A stretch of DNA of 43,928 nt from a virus. The stretch lies in the IMG/VR virus record IMGVR_UViG_3300009514_000048, positions 1 through 43,928 of that record. One strand, 5' to 3'. The notes beneath the pieces were generated by a model that was not told the DNA's origin, searched no databases, and saw only the letters and a program-made list of their open reading frames with translations. The translations under genes and the position numbers were made by a program. Shown one piece after another: positions 5,934 to 43,928 of the stretch; the stretch's first letter is position 1, and each line of letters opens with the position of its first letter.

Positions 5934-6173
5934 TTACTTAGTTTGGTGTGGACATAATCCTCTTCGCTTAGCCCAATTACAGTTCATACATAATAATTGA
6001 TAACGATCTTTTGGATACCCTAGTTTTCGTAATTTTACATACGTAACAGCTCCACAAACACGCCTAGGTAATCTCCCCCTTTCTTTGTAGCCATCATTAA
6101 AAATATGATCAATAGTTAAAAACACTTCTCGTTTTTCTCCACAACATTGACAACAATTTCCATAAGCTGTCAA
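5934..6173 (-). CDS. HNH endonuclease (start uncertain)
   Basis: At least 79 aa from a TTG. The pattern CCQCCGEKREVFLTIDHI then DG...YQLLCMNCNWAKR matches a phage/plasmid HNH family: CxxC zinc knuckle, DH catalytic pair, then CxxC. The frame stays open for 42 codons upstream (to about 6299) and encodes a strongly basic stretch (KYTARRKRTNKIYRETARK) typical of the N-terminus of this family. A longer protein from a rare start, or a fusion, is therefore possible. It is probably a homing-type nuclease. Confidence 0.7.
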   Translation of the reverse strand: MTAYGNCCQCCGEKREVFLTIDHIFNDGYKERGRLPRRVCGAVTYVKLRKLGYPKDRYQLLCMNCNWAKRRGLCPHQTK

Positions 6174-9684: not shown

Positions 9685-10194
9685 ATGAATGACAAAAAAG
9701 AGACAAAGTTAAGACAAAATGACACTGGTAAATTTGTTGCTATAGATAAATCCAAACTTCTCATGCCAGTCTTAAATCAAGGGCTTAAACCTGATGAAGT
9801 TTTTAACCCTGATTTAAAAGCTAAGTTTATAGAGAACTATAGACGCAGCAATAACCTTACAAAATCATTGCAGTTAGTGGGTGTGGGTAAGCAATCTTTT
9901 TATAATCAGATAGCTAGGGATAAATATTTCAAAGAGCTGTTTGATGAGGCTTTAAACGCCATATTAGACGATATGGAACAAGTTATGAAGGAAAGTGCTA
10001 TGACTCATGGGGCAGGGGGGTTTAGGGATCGCATAGCCTTCCTTAAGGCTCATCGCAAGAAGTATAATGACAAGATTGAACATGAGCATACAGTAGATAA
10101 GAAAAAGCTTCTAAGTTATTATAAAGACCTTCCAAACGTCTTTAAAGAGATTCCTAAAGAAGTCATAGATATAAAGCCTTTGCCTACGTCGTAG
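9685..10194 (+). CDS. Terminase small subunit
   Basis: 169 aa. The central part has the helix-turn-helix typical of small terminases: FIENYRRSNNLTKSLQLVGV, then GKQSFYNQIARDKYFKELFD. A helix (AILDDMEQVMKESAM) and a basic C-terminal segment follow (RKKYNDKIEHEHTVDKKKLL). The small subunit recognises the packaging site as an oligomer and hands DNA to the ATPase. No SD precedes this ATG; three ATGACAAA-like repeats cluster here. A 1.9-kb antisense cassette separates it from the large subunit genes. The stop codon is inside a hairpin. Confidence 0.8.
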   Translation: MNDKKETKLRQNDTGKFVAIDKSKLLMPVLNQGLKPDEVFNPDLKAKFIENYRRSNNLTKSLQLVGVGKQSFYNQIARDKYFKELFDEALNAILDDMEQVMKESAMTHGAGGFRDRIAFLKAHRKKYNDKIEHEHTVDKKKLLSYYKDLPNVFKEIPKEVIDIKPLPTS

Positions 10195-12398: not shown

Positions 12399-12688
12399 AT
12401 AGAACCCGATTCCTGTTGACGGGTAGGTATTATTTATCAAAGTACCTAACAAGATGCCGAAAAAATAAAAGAGGCCCGTAAAGTATATAAAAAGGCCCTG
12501 ACTAAGAAGCAGTTTCGTAGTATTGAGTTAACCAGGAAAGATAAGAGTAACATAAGTTAGCGTGTTGATAGTTGATGGTTTACTGTCAAGTATAAAAATT
12601 ACCACAAAGTGCCGTACCTTGTGGTCAAACGACCAGCATTAGCAATTTGCAAATTTCGTCGTATATCAACGGTTTTCAGGGAGAAGAT
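12399..12688 (+). other. Leader between iteron array and terminase
   Basis: This stretch has no convincing gene. It holds a TTGACG (12416-12421) like those at 9350 and 9406 but without a good -10, a GGCC...GGCC dyad around 12473-12496, and a 35-codon open frame rich in Lys/Arg (EKIKEARKVYKKALTKKQF) that has no start unless a -1 shift occurs on a run of six A after the ATG at 12454. It may be a decayed gene. Confidence 0.4.
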
Positions 12689-12742
12689 ATGGCAAAAAAG
12701 AAAAAATCACGCAAAATCAAACCCAAAGGGGTTAAGTATTAA
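12689..12742 (+). CDS. 17-aa Lys-rich leader peptide before terminase ATPase
   Basis: MAKKKKSRKIKPKGVKY, with an excellent SD (GGGAG, 5 bases before the ATG). Its stop TAA overlaps an in-frame ATT that is the best start for the terminase ATPase, and AAGGGG inside the peptide gene serves as the ATT's SD. It is probably a coupling leader, or the true N-terminus joined by a +1 shift. Confidence 0.45.
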   Translation: MAKKKKSRKIKPKGVKY

Positions 12743-13478
12743 AGATTTTGCTGCAGCAAAAATAGAAGAAACCCATATCGCAGCTTTAAAACGAGGCTGT
12801 GAGGGATCTTTAAAGTTTCTTTGTAAGGATATGCTTAAAATGACGGCCTGGGACGGTTTGCATGATGATATAGCCCGTTATCTGGACAATTCGGGGCCTG
12901 AGAAACTTATTTTGGTGCCGAGAGGCCATTTAAAAAGCAGTGTGGTAACTGTTGGGTACACAATTCAACGATTATTGAGAAATCCTGATTTAAGGATTTT
13001 AATAACCAACGCCACATGGAACATGAGTAGGAAGTTTTTAAGACAAATAGCGGATTATTTGACTTTTAATTCAGATTTACCGTCCATTTATGGAGATTTT
13101 AGAGTCGCAGAGCGCACTTGGACGAGAGATGAAATCACAATAGGGCAAAGAACACTCCCAACTGTGAAAGAAGCTAGCGTGTCCACTGCAGGTCTGGAAA
13201 CTGCGTTAACAGGCGGTCATTACGATTTAATTATTCATGACGATTTGGTTGATGAGAATAATATTAACACAAAAGAGCAAATAGAGAAGGTCATTACTTT
13301 TTATAGAAATTCTAGGCCCTTATTAGATCCAGGGGGCGAAATGATTATTATTGGAACTAGATGGGCTGAAGATGATCTATACGGCATGATTATTAAAGAA
13401 TTGGCTGGTTCTATTAATGGACACCTAGTTAAAGAGCACGAAGATAGGCTTAAATGGCGAAAATTCGTAACAATATGA
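12738..13478 (+). CDS. Terminase large subunit, ATPase domain (split gene)
   Basis: 246 aa from the ATT at 12738; the frame is open from a GTG at 12609 but without an SD. Walker A-like LVPRGHLKSSVVTVGY (classic phage terminase PRGHxKS), then ATNATWNMSRKFL, Walker B plus catalytic acid LIIHDDLVDE, and the coupling motif IIIGTRWAEDD. This is the packaging motor ATPase. The chain ends just after the motor domain (NGHLVKEHEDRLKWRKF); the nuclease half is a separate gene 380 bases downstream, after two small ORFs. The split falls exactly in the interdomain linker. Confidence 0.8.
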   Translation: MKDFAAAKIEETHIAALKRGCEGSLKFLCKDMLKMTAWDGLHDDIARYLDNSGPEKLILVPRGHLKSSVVTVGYTIQRLLRNPDLRILITNATWNMSRKFLRQIADYLTFNSDLPSIYGDFRVAERTWTRDEITIGQRTLPTVKEASVSTAGLETALTGGHYDLIIHDDLVDENNINTKEQIEKVITFYRNSRPLLDPGGEMIIIGTRWAEDDLYGMIIKELAGSINGHLVKEHEDRLKWRKFVTI

Positions 13479-13636
13479 CCTTAGAAAATAAAAATAAGGC
13501 TAAATCATTAATAATTGAAAGAATTAATAATTTTAAGCCTGAATTTGAAACGATTGATGAGGTTTTAGAAGAAATAGTGGCTGATTTATGGGAAATTTTT
13601 GAAGACGACTTAACTTTTAACATTAAGAGGAATTAA
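13454..13636 (+). CDS. Hypothetical 60-aa protein inside the terminase split
   Basis: Starts MAKIRNNMTLENKNKAKSLI, then acidic helices (EVLEEIVADLWEIFEDD). It overlaps the end of the ATPase gene by 25 bases in another frame and has no good SD, so it would rely on coupling. No family is recognised. It lies entirely in the insertion between the two terminase halves. Confidence 0.5.
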   Translation: MAKIRNNMTLENKNKAKSLIIERINNFKPEFETIDEVLEEIVADLWEIFEDDLTFNIKRN

Positions 13637-13638
13637 TT

Positions 13639-13836
13639 ATGGCAAAACGAAAAAGAGGCAGTATTAGAACTGTAGGGGACGTAAAAGAAGGACAATTAGC
13701 GAGTGGGCGACGGATTATAATTCCTAAAAGTAAAGAATTTGCTCCTGGGCTATTTGATTCAATGGCAAAATCTATTGTATCACCTGAAATTAAAGCTCAG
13801 ATGAGAGAAAGAGCTAGACGACGGAAAAATAAATAA
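13639..13836 (+). CDS. Hypothetical 65-aa basic protein inside the terminase split
   Basis: Starts MAKRKRGSIRTVGDVKEGQL and ends MRERARRRKNK. It is basic at both ends with a short central domain, which suggests nucleic acid or virion binding. The SD AGAGGA is 6-8 bases upstream. It does not resemble a homing endonuclease or maturase. No family is recognised. Confidence 0.6.
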   Translation: MAKRKRGSIRTVGDVKEGQLASGRRIIIPKSKEFAPGLFDSMAKSIVSPEIKAQMRERARRRKNK

Positions 13837-13842
13837 TTAGTC

Positions 13843-13859
13843 ATAATAGGGGATATTAT
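13843..13859 (+). promoter_or_regulatory. SD-in-loop hairpin at terminase nuclease start
   Basis: ATAATA (13843-13848), loop GGGGA, TATTAT (13854-13859). The loop is the ribosome-binding site and the 3' arm runs into the ATG. The stem is A/T only, so it is weak and could be temperature sensitive or a chance feature. Confidence 0.4.
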
Positions 13860-14742
13860 GGCATTTGATTGTTATATAAGACGTTCTACTGAAAACGACA
13901 AAGTCATTTTTCCTAAAATGTTCTGCCGAACGGATAAAGAAGCAGAAATATTAGGAAAACAAGGAAAAAAGATTAAGTCATTAGAAGCCGAGCGTAGGGC
14001 CATGAATAGCGTATTTAGATTCATGTGTCAGTTTTACAATGATCCTATTGATGAAAGCACTATTGAATTTAAAAGAGACTATATACACGCAGTCAATATA
14101 TCGGGAGACATGGTTAAACAATTGGCTAGAGAACCTGCTATTATCTCCATTGATCCAGCCATCCGTTTAAAAGAGACAAATGATCGCACAGGTATTGTCG
14201 TAACAAAACCGTTACGTGAGCAGCAACAAATTGTTGTTTTAGAAGCTACAGGTAAAAGAATTAGTGTCGATCAACTTGTAGATGAAATTTTTAGGCTTAC
14301 TAAAACATACTACACAGAGCGAGTCTTAATTGAGACATTTCACGCTCAATTATGGCTCGTCAAAATTTTAAAAGATGAGATGGTAAAGAGAGGACAGTAC
14401 TTTACTATAAATGAAGTTAAAGGCTCTACTAGGGAGAGTAAAGCCGCAAGAATCAGAGGGTTGATTCCGTATTACGCTAATCATAGAGTATTACATAGAA
14501 TTGGACTTGATGATTTAGAGGCTGAGTTAATTCAGTTCCCCCGATCAAAACATGACGACATCATAGATGCACTCGCTTACCAGATATTGTACTGGAAAGA
14601 AATTTTGACGGGAGACAGTAAAAAGTTCATTATTAAACATGAACCATTTACTGTTGACTGGTTCAAATCCAGAATGCCTAAATATAATACCGCAGAAGAA
14701 AAAATCTTTAAAGGTATAATCAAGAGGAGACCAACAATTTAA
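13858..14742 (+). CDS. Terminase large subunit, nuclease domain (split gene)
   Basis: 294 aa. It starts MAFDCYIRRSTENDKVIFPK, the segment that follows the ATPase domain in one-piece terminases. Then SIDPAIRLKETNDRTGIVV supplies the first catalytic Asp of the RNase H-like fold, RVLIETFHAQLWL the second acidic position, and FPRSKHDDIIDALAYQI the final Asp pair. This domain cuts concatemers during packaging. It has its own SD (GGGGA in a hairpin loop), so the terminase is probably made as two chains that assemble. Confidence 0.8.
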   Translation: MAFDCYIRRSTENDKVIFPKMFCRTDKEAEILGKQGKKIKSLEAERRAMNSVFRFMCQFYNDPIDESTIEFKRDYIHAVNISGDMVKQLAREPAIISIDPAIRLKETNDRTGIVVTKPLREQQQIVVLEATGKRISVDQLVDEIFRLTKTYYTERVLIETFHAQLWLVKILKDEMVKRGQYFTINEVKGSTRESKAARIRGLIPYYANHRVLHRIGLDDLEAELIQFPRSKHDDIIDALAYQILYWKEILTGDSKKFIIKHEPFTVDWFKSRMPKYNTAEEKIFKGIIKRRPTI

Positions 14743-14744
14743 TC

Positions 14745-16706
14745 ATGGCTAAATCAACGGGTAACCCAAACCAAACACCTAAATTAAAAACCATCGAAAA
14801 CTGGCATGATAGGTTAGATACGGCAGAAAGAGTTAAAAACGATTATAAAGATCTCTATCGTTGGGATGTTTTTGTTGATGAGATGAAAGGCTTTTGGAAC
14901 TTACCTTCAGATGAAATTACACCATTAAACTTCGTATTTTCGTGGATGAAGACTGAACTCTCCTCCCTTTATGTGCGTGATCCACATATTGAGATTACTC
15001 CTTTAAAAAAAGCCACTGTACAGCAAGCAGAGTTAAAAGAGTTAGCAATGGCTGACATATGGCGACGTAAACGAGTTAAGAGAGAAATAAAGAAATGTAT
15101 TGTTGATGGGAAATTAGTATCACACGCTTGGTTAAAGGTGGGGTATGCTGGCGACTTTAAAACAATGGTAGATGCTGAAGGTAATCAGTTTGACACTATT
15201 AAGAAGGATGATTTCTTTATATATCGTATTCCTTGGACACATGTATTATTTGATAATCACAGGTCTATTGATGCACCATTTGATTGCCAATGGATTAGTC
15301 ATGAATTTTGGGTTCCTGAAGAAGAGTTTATGGCTAAAAAAGAGTTTAAGCATAAAGACAAAGTTAGTGCTCAGACTTTAAGACGATTTTCACCCACACA
15401 GCAAACACAACGCAGGATTAAGCTTATACGACCTCCTGAGATTGAGAGACTGGGAAGTCAAAAATTTGTTCAGCTATTTGAGATTTGGGATAAGAAAGCC
15501 AAGAAAGTTTATATTTTAGCTCCTGGGGTCACACAAGGGTTTATACATGAGAAAGATTGGCCTTATAAGAAATTAAAAGACTTTCCGTTCTCTTTCTTAG
15601 ACTTTAATCCCATTAATGATGAACCTTACGGGATCCCTGATGTTTATACCTTTGAAAGACAGCTTCTGGAGTTAATGAAAGTTGATCATTTAATTTTAGA
15701 TCATGTGAAGAAGAATAATAGGCAAATGATTACAGAGCCTGGGAACTTGAGTGAAGAGTCTCGGGTTGCGTTTGAAGAAGGACAGACTGGCGTGCTTTTA
15801 GAAGCTAAAAATCCTGATAAAGTCTTTACTGTGCCTTATCCTGCTGTTCAACAAGATATCTATGCGTTACGTAATTTCTTACTGCAGAATATCAATAACA
15901 CGAATGGTCAACCTGCTAATCAACGTGGATCTAGTCAACCTGTAGCTACACGCACATTCAGAGAATTGGCAAAAATTGACGAAGGTTCACAAGATAGACG
16001 GGCAGAACAGTTAGATGTTTTAGAAGATTTTATGGCTGATGCAGCTAGAAAGCTTAGCCTCTTAGTAGACGAATTTGGTGATACAGATTATTTTGTTAAA
16101 GTTTCTAGACGTTTAACTCCGCAACAAATTGAAGCAGTGCTAAGGAGACCATCAGGACAAGATATTGAAGGTAATGGAGTATCTATTAGAAATAATCAAA
16201 TTAATGGATTCTCTGTTAACCGAGAAGACTTTGGTGGCCTAGATTCAGAATTTGATATTCAAATTAAACCTGGCTCTACGGTTCCTTTAACAAGAGAAAA
16301 TAAAACAGAGATTTATAGATTTGCTATAGAGACTGGGCCAGCCGCAGGAGCAATTCCTGGTGGGCCACTTATGGGAGCTGCAGCGAGAGGACTCTTTAGA
16401 GAATTTGACATGGTTGAACTAGAAATGGCCTTGGAAGAAGAACAGCAAGCACAAGAACAGCTTAGAGCAGCCCAATCACAGCAAGCGCAAGAAGTTCAGC
16501 AACTAGATGCTGCTAAGAAAGGTGCTGACATAGAAATTGCGGCAGAGCGTGAAGCAGACAGAAAAGAAAATACTAGAATTAAACAAGAGGAAGTTCAACT
16601 CAAACGAATTGAACTTCGTATAAGAGAGTTAGAAGCGGCATTAAAAGCAACACAGAATAGACAAGCCTTTAATGAACGCAAACGAAAAGAATCTAGGAGT
16701 AAATAA
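14745..16706 (+). CDS. Portal protein
   Basis: 653 aa. Size, position after terminase and motifs fit a podovirus-type portal: WDVFVDEMKGFWN near the N-terminus, FVFSWMKTELSSLYVRDPHI, KCIVDGKLVSHAWLKVGYAG, then LDFNPINDEPYGIPDVYTFE and ELMKVDHLILDHVKKNNR. The last 100 residues are a long Gln/Glu/Arg coiled coil. It forms the 12-subunit ring through which DNA enters and leaves the head. It starts 2 bases after the nuclease stop and abuts the next ATG. Confidence 0.82.
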   Translation: MAKSTGNPNQTPKLKTIENWHDRLDTAERVKNDYKDLYRWDVFVDEMKGFWNLPSDEITPLNFVFSWMKTELSSLYVRDPHIEITPLKKATVQQAELKELAMADIWRRKRVKREIKKCIVDGKLVSHAWLKVGYAGDFKTMVDAEGNQFDTIKKDDFFIYRIPWTHVLFDNHRSIDAPFDCQWISHEFWVPEEEFMAKKEFKHKDKVSAQTLRRFSPTQQTQRRIKLIRPPEIERLGSQKFVQLFEIWDKKAKKVYILAPGVTQGFIHEKDWPYKKLKDFPFSFLDFNPINDEPYGIPDVYTFERQLLELMKVDHLILDHVKKNNRQMITEPGNLSEESRVAFEEGQTGVLLEAKNPDKVFTVPYPAVQQDIYALRNFLLQNINNTNGQPANQRGSSQPVATRTFRELAKIDEGSQDRRAEQLDVLEDFMADAARKLSLLVDEFGDTDYFVKVSRRLTPQQIEAVLRRPSGQDIEGNGVSIRNNQINGFSVNREDFGGLDSEFDIQIKPGSTVPLTRENKTEIYRFAIETGPAAGAIPGGPLMGAAARGLFREFDMVELEMALEEEQQAQEQLRAAQSQQAQEVQQLDAAKKGADIEIAAEREADRKENTRIKQEEVQLKRIELRIRELEAALKATQNRQAFNERKRKESRSK

Positions 16707-34183: not shown

Positions 34184-34375
34184 TTATTGTTCCTCCACTA
34201 TTGTCCAAAAGATTGGCACCCACACATTCTTCCCAGTAGCCAATCGTAGCTTATAATGATACACAGAAGATTCTACTCTCACAACATTTTTATAAATCTT
34301 CTTTGGCCCGAAGGGCCATTCTACATACACTGTAAATACTAACAACAAGCATGATAAAAGTTTACCAACGTTCAT
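34184..34375 (-). CDS. 63-aa membrane-anchored or secreted protein
   Basis: MNVGKLLSCLLLVFTVYVEW is an N-terminal hydrophobic anchor or signal, then KKIYKNVVRVESSVYHYKLR and VPIFWTIVEEQ. I chose the ATG at 34375; a longer frame is open inside the transposase fragment. Not recognised. Confidence 0.5.
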   Translation of the reverse strand: MNVGKLLSCLLLVFTVYVEWPFGPKKIYKNVVRVESSVYHYKLRLATGKNVWVPIFWTIVEEQ

Positions 34376-34889
34376 TATTAGGTTTTTTATGACAGGCATC
34401 ACATAGCGTAGTATACCAGCCGTCTCCTCTAGTTTTTCCTTTTGCCCCACGGCCCCGTTTACCTTCCCTTTTTCCGCCGATATAAGTCTCATCGGCTTCG
34501 ACAACACCGCTTAACGGTTCTCTTTCCTGCGACATCAACCGTCTAATCTGCTTGGCAATCCGCCACGCACACTTATACGTCACGCCCAGATGACGCTGTA
34601 ATTCTTTGGCCGCTACCCCATTTTTGGATTGGCTCATCAAGAATATGGCATGAAACCACAGTGTTAATGGTGTTGGTGATTTATGGAAGATCGTCCCCGC
34701 CGTCGGGCTTAGTTGATTCCCACACCATGAACAAACGTAAGCCTTGCGGTTCTCGATGGGGTAAAAACAAGCCTTGTGTCCGCATTTGGAGCATTTCGCC
34801 CCTCTTGGATACCGTGTTTTGTAGAGCCAGAATAGACAAGCCTTATCATCGGGGAAAAGGCTTTTAAATTCTCTGATTGTGAATTTCAC
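34362..34889 (-). CDS. IS1595-type transposase, N-terminal fragment
   Basis: 175 aa, GTG start overlapping the upstream stop. YPRGAKCSKCGHKACFYPIE and YVCSWCGNQLSPTAGTIFHK are the zinc ribbon of IS1595-family transposases; KNGVAAKELQRHLGVTYKCA the HTH, and VVEADETYIGGKREGKRGRG the first catalytic Asp. Full proteins have about 300 aa with two more catalytic residues, all missing here. The end (YTTLCDACHKKPN) is not typical. GC-richer than its neighbours. It is a broken or domesticated transposase. Confidence 0.8.
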   Translation of the reverse strand: MKFTIREFKSLFPDDKACLFWLYKTRYPRGAKCSKCGHKACFYPIENRKAYVCSWCGNQLSPTAGTIFHKSPTPLTLWFHAIFLMSQSKNGVAAKELQRHLGVTYKCAWRIAKQIRRLMSQEREPLSGVVEADETYIGGKREGKRGRGAKGKTRGDGWYTTLCDACHKKPNNERW

Positions 34890-42517: not shown

Positions 42518-43928
42518 AACCCCCCGAAACCTCCACTGGTACTGACAGAGGTACTGCTTTCTCCATCAAGTATTTTATTCGTTGATACGTAATCATATCA
42601 TCTGAGCCACTATCTATGTCAAACATTAATTCATCATGTACTTGAAGATCCATTAACATAATATCATCATAGATATCAAGCATAGCTTTCTTCATAATGT
42701 CGGCAGCACTTCCTTGGATGATGGCATTAACTGAGACTCTTTCTGCGTGCCATCGTTCAAATTTGTTTCGTGAGTTGATTCCTTTGATGGGGATAGTTCG
42801 TCCAAGTATTGTTTCAACGTATCCATATTTTGCTGCTCTATATTTTGTGAGTGTGACCCACGCTGCTGCTTTTGGCAGCTTAGACCAATACGTATTAAGA
42901 GCCTCTGCAGCTCTATCTTCAGAAATGCTAGCTGTCTCTGCAATTCTTTTTGCTCCTGCGCCGTAGATGGCAGCAAAGTTAATTGTCTTTCCAAGTCTTC
43001 TATTATCTGGAACACCAATAAGATCTGCTGTTCGTTGGTGGATGTCTTCTCCATTTTTATACGCCTCCAATAGTGTTGGCTCTTGCGTGTAGTGGGCAAA
43101 GAGTCTGTATTCAATTTGTGAGTAGTCCAACACTAATAATTTGTGTCCTCTTGGTGCAGTGAAACAGTCTCTAATCTTAGTGCCCATGTCTTCATGAAAT
43201 CTTTTACACTCTGGATCTGGTGCTGGTATGTTCTGTAAGTTTGGCTTACTTGAAGCTAACCTACCAGTTAATGTGGACTGAGTAAAGTTAGCATGAATCT
43301 TTGGTAATGTCGAGCCTTGTAAAAATGGTTCAGTGTAAGTACTTTTCAGCTTCTTATACTTTCTATAGTTCAATAGCTCCTCTATAAATGGTTGGTCTTT
43401 ATAAGGTGCGAGGTCTTTAACACCTGTTGCCTTAACATTAATATTAAGCTTCCCAAATAACTTACACTGATGTTCTCCTTTATTCAATTTCTTAATAGCT
43501 TCTAGAACTTGCTTAGGAGAATTAACATTTACTTTCTTCTCAAAATATTTTTGACACTCATCATCCCAATATCCTACCTTAGACTCCAAGTCCAGATCTA
43601 GACTTTTGAGTTTGTCAACATCCACATACACACCCTTGTCTTCCATGCGAGACAACAATCTGTAGGTAGGAAGTTCAATCTTTGTGTAGTAGTCTAGTTG
43701 TTGAGGACTCAATCGTTTCACACAATACTGATAGAGTTTATAAGTACTAAGCACATCTAGTCCACAGTACGCTGCTACTCTTTCAATTGGTTGCTGATCT
43801 AGCGTGACTTTTTTCTTACCCCTTCCCACCATTTCTTTGTAAGTTGGGTATTCGATGTCCAAATACTTTTTCGCAAGAGGTTTAAGACTGTAAGAATCAA
43901 GAGAAGAATCCATTGAATAAGTAAGAAT
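42489..43928 (-). CDS. polA: DNA polymerase I family A, C-terminal part (cut by window edge)
   Basis: The frame is open through the right edge (ILTYSMDSSLDS at the border). It holds the end of the 3'-5' exonuclease (ExoIII VAAYCGLDVLSTYKLY), then thumb, and the polymerase core: motif A LLVLDYSQIEYRLFAHY, motif B RRLGKTINFAAIYGAG with Phe at the position of E. coli F762, and motif C LQVHDELMFDI. It copies the genome using primers from the primase-helicase. The N-terminus is at 1-167; the middle of the exo domain is missing between the window ends. Confidence 0.9.
   Translation of the reverse strand: MLTYSMDSSLDSYSLKPLAKKYLDIEYPTYKEMVGRGKKKVTLDQQPIERVAAYCGLDVLSTYKLYQYCVKRLSPQQLDYYTKIELPTYRLLSRMEDKGVYVDVDKLKSLDLDLESKVGYWDDECQKYFEKKVNVNSPKQVLEAIKKLNKGEHQCKLFGKLNINVKATGVKDLAPYKDQPFIEELLNYRKYKKLKSTYTEPFLQGSTLPKIHANFTQSTLTGRLASSKPNLQNIPAPDPECKRFHEDMGTKIRDCFTAPRGHKLLVLDYSQIEYRLFAHYTQEPTLLEAYKNGEDIHQRTADLIGVPDNRRLGKTINFAAIYGAGAKRIAETASISEDRAAEALNTYWSKLPKAAAWVTLTKYRAAKYGYVETILGRTIPIKGINSRNKFERWHAERVSVNAIIQGSAADIMKKAMLDIYDDIMLMDLQVHDELMFDIDSGSDDMITYQRIKYLMEKAVPLSVPVEVSGGYGESWAKAK

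Follow-up and report, generated by a model that had tools for sequence, protein, structure and literature searches.

In phages the large terminase (TerL) is normally a single chain, and in models of packaging the hydrolysis of ATP within this one chain moves a lid and, via a hinge, the nuclease domain. For most Arthrobacter cluster AY phages the ATPase and the nuclease are reported to lie in two genes, one directly after the other (PMC11920828, PMC12820723). The terL of Lelliottia phage phD2B is described as lying in two ORFs that are together full-length, for which an intron that carries a gene for a homing endonuclease was proposed (PMC4246154), and T4 gp17, when cut at its linker, is reported to keep both activities and to lose translocation (PMC3012670, PMC9958956).

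Here we describe a locus in the window, i.e. the whole 43,928-nucleotide stretch of viral DNA that was analysed (IMG/VR record IMGVR_UViG_3300009514_000048), at which the large terminase is very probably made naturally as two proteins, one consisting of the ATPase core and a tail, the other of the lid and an RNase H-type nuclease. The features of the locus are the following.

9685 to 10194, + strand: terminase small subunit gene, apart from the split (phrog_4044, 8.3e-09); upstream of the ATPase gene in relatives too
12689 to 12742, + strand: ORF of a 17-aa basic leader, its stop overlapping the ATPase start; GGAG SD-like motif before ATG 12689
12738 to 13478, + strand: ATPase chain, 246 aa from ATT 12738 (phrog_38, structure matches, invariant catalytic residues)
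13353 to 13376, + strand: coupling motif GTRWAEDD (sequence and alignment A4; name from general knowledge and from PMC3012670)
13407 to 13475, + strand: C-terminal tail of the ATPase, in split members only (Trp-Arg pair, alignment A4)
13454 to 13636, + strand: 60-aa ORF between the genes (homologues in other gaps, purifying selection)
13639 to 13836, + strand: 65-aa basic ORF between the genes (open frame, SD-like GAGGAA upstream)
13858 to 14742, + strand: lid and nuclease chain, 294 aa (phrog_38, 8.9e-33; structure matches; conserved residues)
13858 to 14052, + strand: lid segment, residues 1-65 of the nuclease chain (alignments A1 and A5; the stretch between both models)
14745 to 16706, + strand: portal gene, directly downstream (P22_portal, 1.5e-06; same order in split and fused relatives)

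The terminase large subunit profile phrog_38 matches the ATPase ORF over profile positions 251-466 (1.6e-37) and the nuclease ORF over positions 489-717 (8.9e-33), in the same order as the genes. The fused relative L084 aligns with its residues 1-209 at 12765-13400 and with its residues 214-455 at 13864-14619, so that hardly any residue is lost or doubled, and no further L084 match better than E=2 was found in the window. The ordered coverage by phrog_38 and L084 points to one complete TerL that is present in two pieces. The first-pass annotation, made from the letters alone, had read a large terminase split into ATPase and nuclease genes, some 380 bases with two small ORFs between them and an SD for the nuclease gene itself, and this reading holds in each part: one profile covers both ORFs, 379 nt with ORFs of 60 and 65 aa separate the ATPase stop from the nuclease start, and an SD-like AGGGGA stands at 13848-13853. 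The predicted masses of the chains are ~28 kDa for the ATPase and ~34 kDa for the nuclease.

The start of the ATPase gene had been set at 12738, and while the ORF does run from there to its stop (TGA, 13476-13478), position 12738 itself is an ATT codon and no usual start. Upstream of it the only in-frame ATG, GTG or TTG codons are GTGs at 12609 and 12621, neither with a clear SD, and the gene has no such codon where its relatives begin; the ATT overlaps the stop of the leader ORF. In L001 a similar basic leader ends in TAATG at the ATPase start. Translation in the window may begin at the ATT via coupled re-initiation, or may reach the ATPase frame by a +1 shift.

Each chain has the signature of its domain. 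Lys66, Asp168, Asp169 and Thr207 of the ATPase are invariant over the 30 rows of alignment A4, and the Walker A, Walker B and coupling motifs of a TerL ATPase core are all present. Modelled alone (mean pLDDT 84.2 for the nuclease, 90.4 for the ATPase), the ATPase chain superimposes on PDB 8dgc_E (Z 22.8, 3.3 A over 229 residues) and on T4 gp17 2o0j (Z 18.0, 2.9 A over 199 residues, chain range 100-315). Asp99, Glu159, Asp233, Asp234 and Asp237 of the nuclease are nearly invariant (alignment A5, 30 rows), which is the Asp/Glu/Asp arrangement of the RNase H-type TerL nucleases, and the model reaches Z 14-17 against solved ones, with 17.1 for D6E TerL and 14.9 for T4 gp17, the match starting at model residue 66-67.

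The position of the cut follows from where these models stop and start. The nuclease model matches solved domains only from about residue 65 (from residue 360 onward in T4, 233 in D6E, 273 in HK97 and ~210 in Sf6), and the ATPase model stops at T4 residue 315, which leaves the lid to residues 1-65 of the second chain. In fused TerLs the lid segment comes after the coupling-motif helix of the same chain, and the start of the second chain, F-D-x-[YF]-[IVL]-[RK], can still be aligned to the fused lid strand (A5). Alignments A1 and A5 thereby bear out the first-pass claim that the nuclease gene opens with the segment that follows the coupling motif in one-chain TerLs. The same annotation spoke of a split into ATPase and nuclease genes; the two genes stand, but the cut is at the junction of core and lid and not at the border of ATPase and nuclease. 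Since it falls just after the coupling motif, the lid segment goes with the nuclease, and on the alignments and models the ATPase engine is predicted to be on one chain and the transmission (lid) together with the nuclease on the other. When the nuclease chain is modelled alone, its first 20 residues are poorly defined (pLDDT 48 and 65); this would be expected of strands that depend on the other chain, but could also come from a shallow alignment. Within the group the lid of L071, L072, L073, L074, L075, L076 and L078 has a zinc-knuckle-like CxxC...CxxC pattern (A5), which is absent in the window, L001, L070, L077 and L079.

The motor domain had been taken to end just after GTRWAEDD. It does not: the ATPase continues for 33 residues more, into a conserved tail, and extends ~20 residues beyond the coupling-motif helix. 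A corresponding stretch between motif and lid is absent in the fused L034, L022 and L004, and a Trp-Arg pair within it is found in 13/13 split rows of A4 and in L146, hence in 14/14 distinct ATPase sequences. The confidence of the model is lower here (pLDDT 73 and 64 in the final two blocks). We infer that the tail may serve for docking, in place of the covalent link that was lost.

A scan with the single ATPase sequence returned solely the contigs L001 and L002, which are nearly one phage twice, are closest to the window (76% identity in the ATPase, 67% in the nuclease) and have the same split. With the ATPase alignment as a profile, the scan of IMG/VR added 77 loci: 13 are split, the L001 and L002 contigs being met again among them, 63 are fused and 1 is cut at a contig end. 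The scan of genomes gave 19 loci, 14 of them fused, 4 with an ORF continuing past the join and no nuclease match, and one split, L146, on a contig binned as Saprospiraceae whose ATPase is 77% identical to that of the window. The split is thus found in 14 further contigs, i.e. 15 with the window (14 if L001/L002 are counted once), all of them from metagenomes, L146 coming from a MAG; in these 15 contigs TerL is not encoded as a single chain, the ATPase and the nuclease lying in two ORFs. A 604 aa open frame that would have made L077 a fused member was rejected, since its translation is broken by a stop directly behind the ATPase tail and by six further ones ahead of the nuclease. L007, L019, L024, L032, L039 and L044, which had looked split too, were dropped: their frames are crossed by TGA, mostly at glycines, and are otherwise read through, which fits phages whose hosts read TGA as Gly (code 25; Absconditabacteria/Gracilibacteria). 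The IMG/VR contig L069 looks chimeric, as it apparently joins two phage sequences head to head and its nuclease gene is in two differing pieces on opposite strands.

In the tree of ATPase plus nuclease (37 rows, of which L069, L072, L076, L078 and L003 entered by their ATPase part alone), the 13 split rows group together as a single clade (100/100 support), sister to fused TerLs, which indicates a single origin of the split for the clade of the window. Against one clade stands the quick ATPase-only tree of 94 rows, where L077 is placed next to the fused group (support 83, not starred) and 2 changes are needed to explain the split label; L146 is in neither tree. The ATPases of the split clade have diverged to ~50% identity. 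The search for an unsplit version that the first-pass annotation had proposed found one in related phages: the closest fused relatives show ~45-49% identity in the ATPase part and likewise have their TerL next to the portal. The order terL gene(s), portal, 103-aa gene and, where present, MCP is common to split members and to the fused L084, L080 and L034. A complete TerL elsewhere was not found in the records of the split members, a fused TerL query giving just two separate matches in 9/9 records, several of which are fragments.

Both terL genes are under purifying selection, with low dN/dS. In the comparison of L001 with L146, dN is 0.11 and dS 1.5 for the ATPase, and dN is 0.18 with saturated dS for the nuclease. 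Genes in the gap are constrained also, namely a 63-codon gene (dN 0.16, dS 1.2) and the 60-aa family (dN 0.22, dS 1.6).

The gap between the two genes is variable. The genes overlap or nearly touch in L072 and L079 (-4 nt), L073 (-1) and L074 (11); gaps of middle size are found in L077 (213 nt), the window (379), L071 (432), L067/L068 (550), L146 (632) and L070 (873), and large ones in L078 (2043 nt), L076 (2142) and L075 (2565). The gaps of L077 and L070 are counted to the nuclease ATG, and L069 does not figure here, since two strands are joined in its contig and the nuclease is cut; its ATPase tail was still used. In L072, L079 and L073 the two ORFs are in different frames with stop and start overlapping and no insert. 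In 10/13 junctions the nuclease start and the stop of the preceding gene overlap (TAATG or ATGA), the exceptions being the window, L074 and L075. The inserts of the window's subgroup consist of small basic proteins and the 60-aa family, of which homologues lie in the gaps of L001/L002, L069, L070 and L146; in the window the 60-aa ORF has an alternative start, ATG 13475, that overlaps the ATPase stop as ATGA. No homologue of the 65-aa ORF was found in the other gaps, and neither of the two small ORFs has a Pfam match above cut-off. L075 has an insert that encodes a 668-aa protein, and L076 one with a protein of weak tail-fibre similarity. By this comparison of contigs the gap is insertion-prone, and the small genes in it are best explained as cargo that is no part of the enzyme. 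Immediately before the nuclease gene a small protein KAxxILRxxxxxGKxLTxxQKxFFGAxA is encoded in L069 (6909-7133), L070 (1716-1856) and L067 (7101-7265), and was not seen there in the window and L146.

We propose that chain 1 would be the engine, an ATPase core that ends just past the coupling motif with a new conserved tail of ~20 residues, and that chain 2 would have the lid segment, or transmission, first and the RNase H-type nuclease after it. The two would reunite in a heterodimer, of which a ring at the portal would probably have five, with the lid strands of chain 2 packing on chain 1, the tail of chain 1 helping to hold them, and ATP hydrolysis being passed on across this non-covalent contact. 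Since the nuclease start usually overlaps the preceding stop, the relative amounts of the two chains may be governed by translational coupling. That the pair forms a true two-component motor, whose engine drives a separate lid-nuclease subunit non-covalently through a newly evolved docking tail and which allows unequal numbers of the chains, is a tentative idea that we hold as possible rather than likely. If it were true, a ring could have fewer nuclease than ATPase chains, or free the nuclease after the cut. The loss of translocation upon cutting T4 gp17 at the linker (PMC3012670, PMC9958956) speaks against the two-chain reading, and means that having two chains is not generally sufficient.

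The two chains could also be made without working together, the ATPase alone being the motor and the lid-nuclease separately cutting DNA. Phi29 packages with its packaging ATPase, and its DNA does not need cutting. The unit length of phi29 DNA is noted in PMC7617512. The two models also fold apart with good confidence save at their ends. However, the segment by which other TerLs close their ATP site, the lid, sits on the nuclease chain, and the start of that chain has stayed alignable to the fused lid strand, so we regard an ATPase-only motor as unlikely.

A programmed frameshift or a ribosome bypass would fuse both ORFs into one chain, and is suggested by L072, L079, L073 and L074, in which the genes touch or nearly do so and the nuclease is read in the -1 frame relative to the ATPase. 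But in 9/13 junctions the two ORFs are separated by 213-2565 nt that contain stops and other genes, and we know of no ribosome bypass across such distances. The tail, moreover, is conserved up to the ATPase stop, and no common slippery stretch was seen by eye at the junctions. We consider such recoding very unlikely.

The two chains had been offered at first beside another possibility, an insert removed as an unrecognised self-splicing intron, with one TerL chain made from the spliced mRNA. In favour of the latter, both ORFs together are one TerL with almost nothing missing, and a phage terL intron is in print for phD2B (PMC4246154). The insert-free members argue against it: in L072, L079 and L073 the ORFs overlap and in L074 they are just 11 nt apart, yet the two remain separate, so there is nothing to splice out, while other inserts hold 2.0-2.6 kb of ordinary genes. 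The conserved tail of the ATPase, besides, reaches its own stop codon. No Rfam family reached its gathering threshold in the window and none matched at E<=5 in 13200-14100, so no group I or II intron was seen there. Homing endonucleases and maturases were absent both from the ORFs of the window's insert (Pfam, PHROG), which agrees with the first-pass remark that it holds no maturase, LAGLIDADG or HNH gene, and from the 14 distinct ORFs scanned among those inserted in the gaps of relatives, 10 of them in each library. An intron is therefore highly improbable. That the gene is defunct or damaged, or the split an artefact of assembly, is equally so; the members are all metagenome contigs and L069 looks chimeric, but the split is common to 15 contigs, both genes are under purifying selection, gene order is conserved and the catalytic residues are kept. 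A split intein joining both proteins after translation has a next to negligible chance, for although related TerLs often carry inteins, at the coupling motif and ahead of the QYxN motif, the cut falls between these sites and at neither, the ATPase tail is of ~20 residues and without Cys in the window, the nuclease opens directly with the lid strand, and no intein halves were recognised, by the general rules for inteins, at the chain ends in A4 and A5. Intein-like inserts occur as long in-frame stretches in the coupling motif (IG^TRW) of L037 and L045, and before the QYxN motif of L013, L030, L045 and L057.

With the split inherited in a clade, both genes under purifying selection and no complete TerL in the 9 records, the reading of the enzyme as two chains is upheld, and at the level of the genes a real split and a two-chain enzyme are strongly supported. 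Given that a hinge cut abolishes translocation in T4, the clade is a natural test of the one-chain requirement, and an engine/transmission cut in a clade so long-lived suggests that covalent continuity is not required at this point. It would also offer a natural system for mixing and separately testing engine, transmission and cutter, and shows that the two halves of an essential enzyme can come to be separated by genes unrelated to it.

Elsewhere in the window, and on the - strand, 34362-34889 has an IS1595-type transposase zinc ribbon (3.3e-06) and just the start of the transposase domain, and looks like a cut IS1595-family transposase; 38786-39739 encodes an RNA ligase (1.2e-14), and 42489-43913 a family A DNA polymerase (3e-93) with its N-terminal exonuclease part probably cut by the window end. 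Weak similarities below the Pfam cut-off, to LAGLIDADG_3 (0.0012) at 858-1262 and to HNH (0.0074) at 5934-6173, are on the same strand and far from the terminase genes.

In regard to known systems, the cluster AY phages BillyTP and BlueShadow resemble the window in that the ATPase and the nuclease are reported to be encoded apart, by genes located between those of the small terminase and the portal. In the BillyTP record, however, the genes overlap with nothing between them, whereas genes can intervene in the clade of the window. Judged by eye, the 198 aa encoded by the BillyTP nuclease gene have nothing ahead of the nuclease, and the stretch that precedes the hinge remains in the ATPase gene, so that BillyTP is cut at the hinge and the window earlier, before the lid; a pairwise alignment gave no clear relationship between the two. 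The fused sister TerLs (L080-L095, L034, L084 and others; phrog_38) are of the same family and have the same neighbours, portal, 103-aa gene and MCP, but are single chains with no tail between coupling motif and lid. The cut of T4 gp17 at the linker comes after the lid, in contrast to that of the window's clade, which is before the lid and persists in nature. The intron and homing endonuclease proposed for phD2B have no counterpart here, neither having been seen and some members being insert-free. L014/L066 share the cut site of the window; their two parts are separated by ~4.3 kb of other genes, and they fall elsewhere on the tree. In MW202554.1 (L057), which is likewise far from the clade of the window, an ATPase gene, a 62-aa gene and a nuclease gene follow each other, the cut is at the hinge, the ATPase gene carries an apparent intein too, and both parts are annotated 'terminase large subunit'. 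No published TerL split between core and lid was recognised in the open-licence literature searched. A two-gene TerL is thus well supported and is of a kind already known; new, as far as this search goes, are that the chain is cut between core and lid, that this cut has become fixed in a clade whose ATPases bear their own tail, and that the gap is filled freely.
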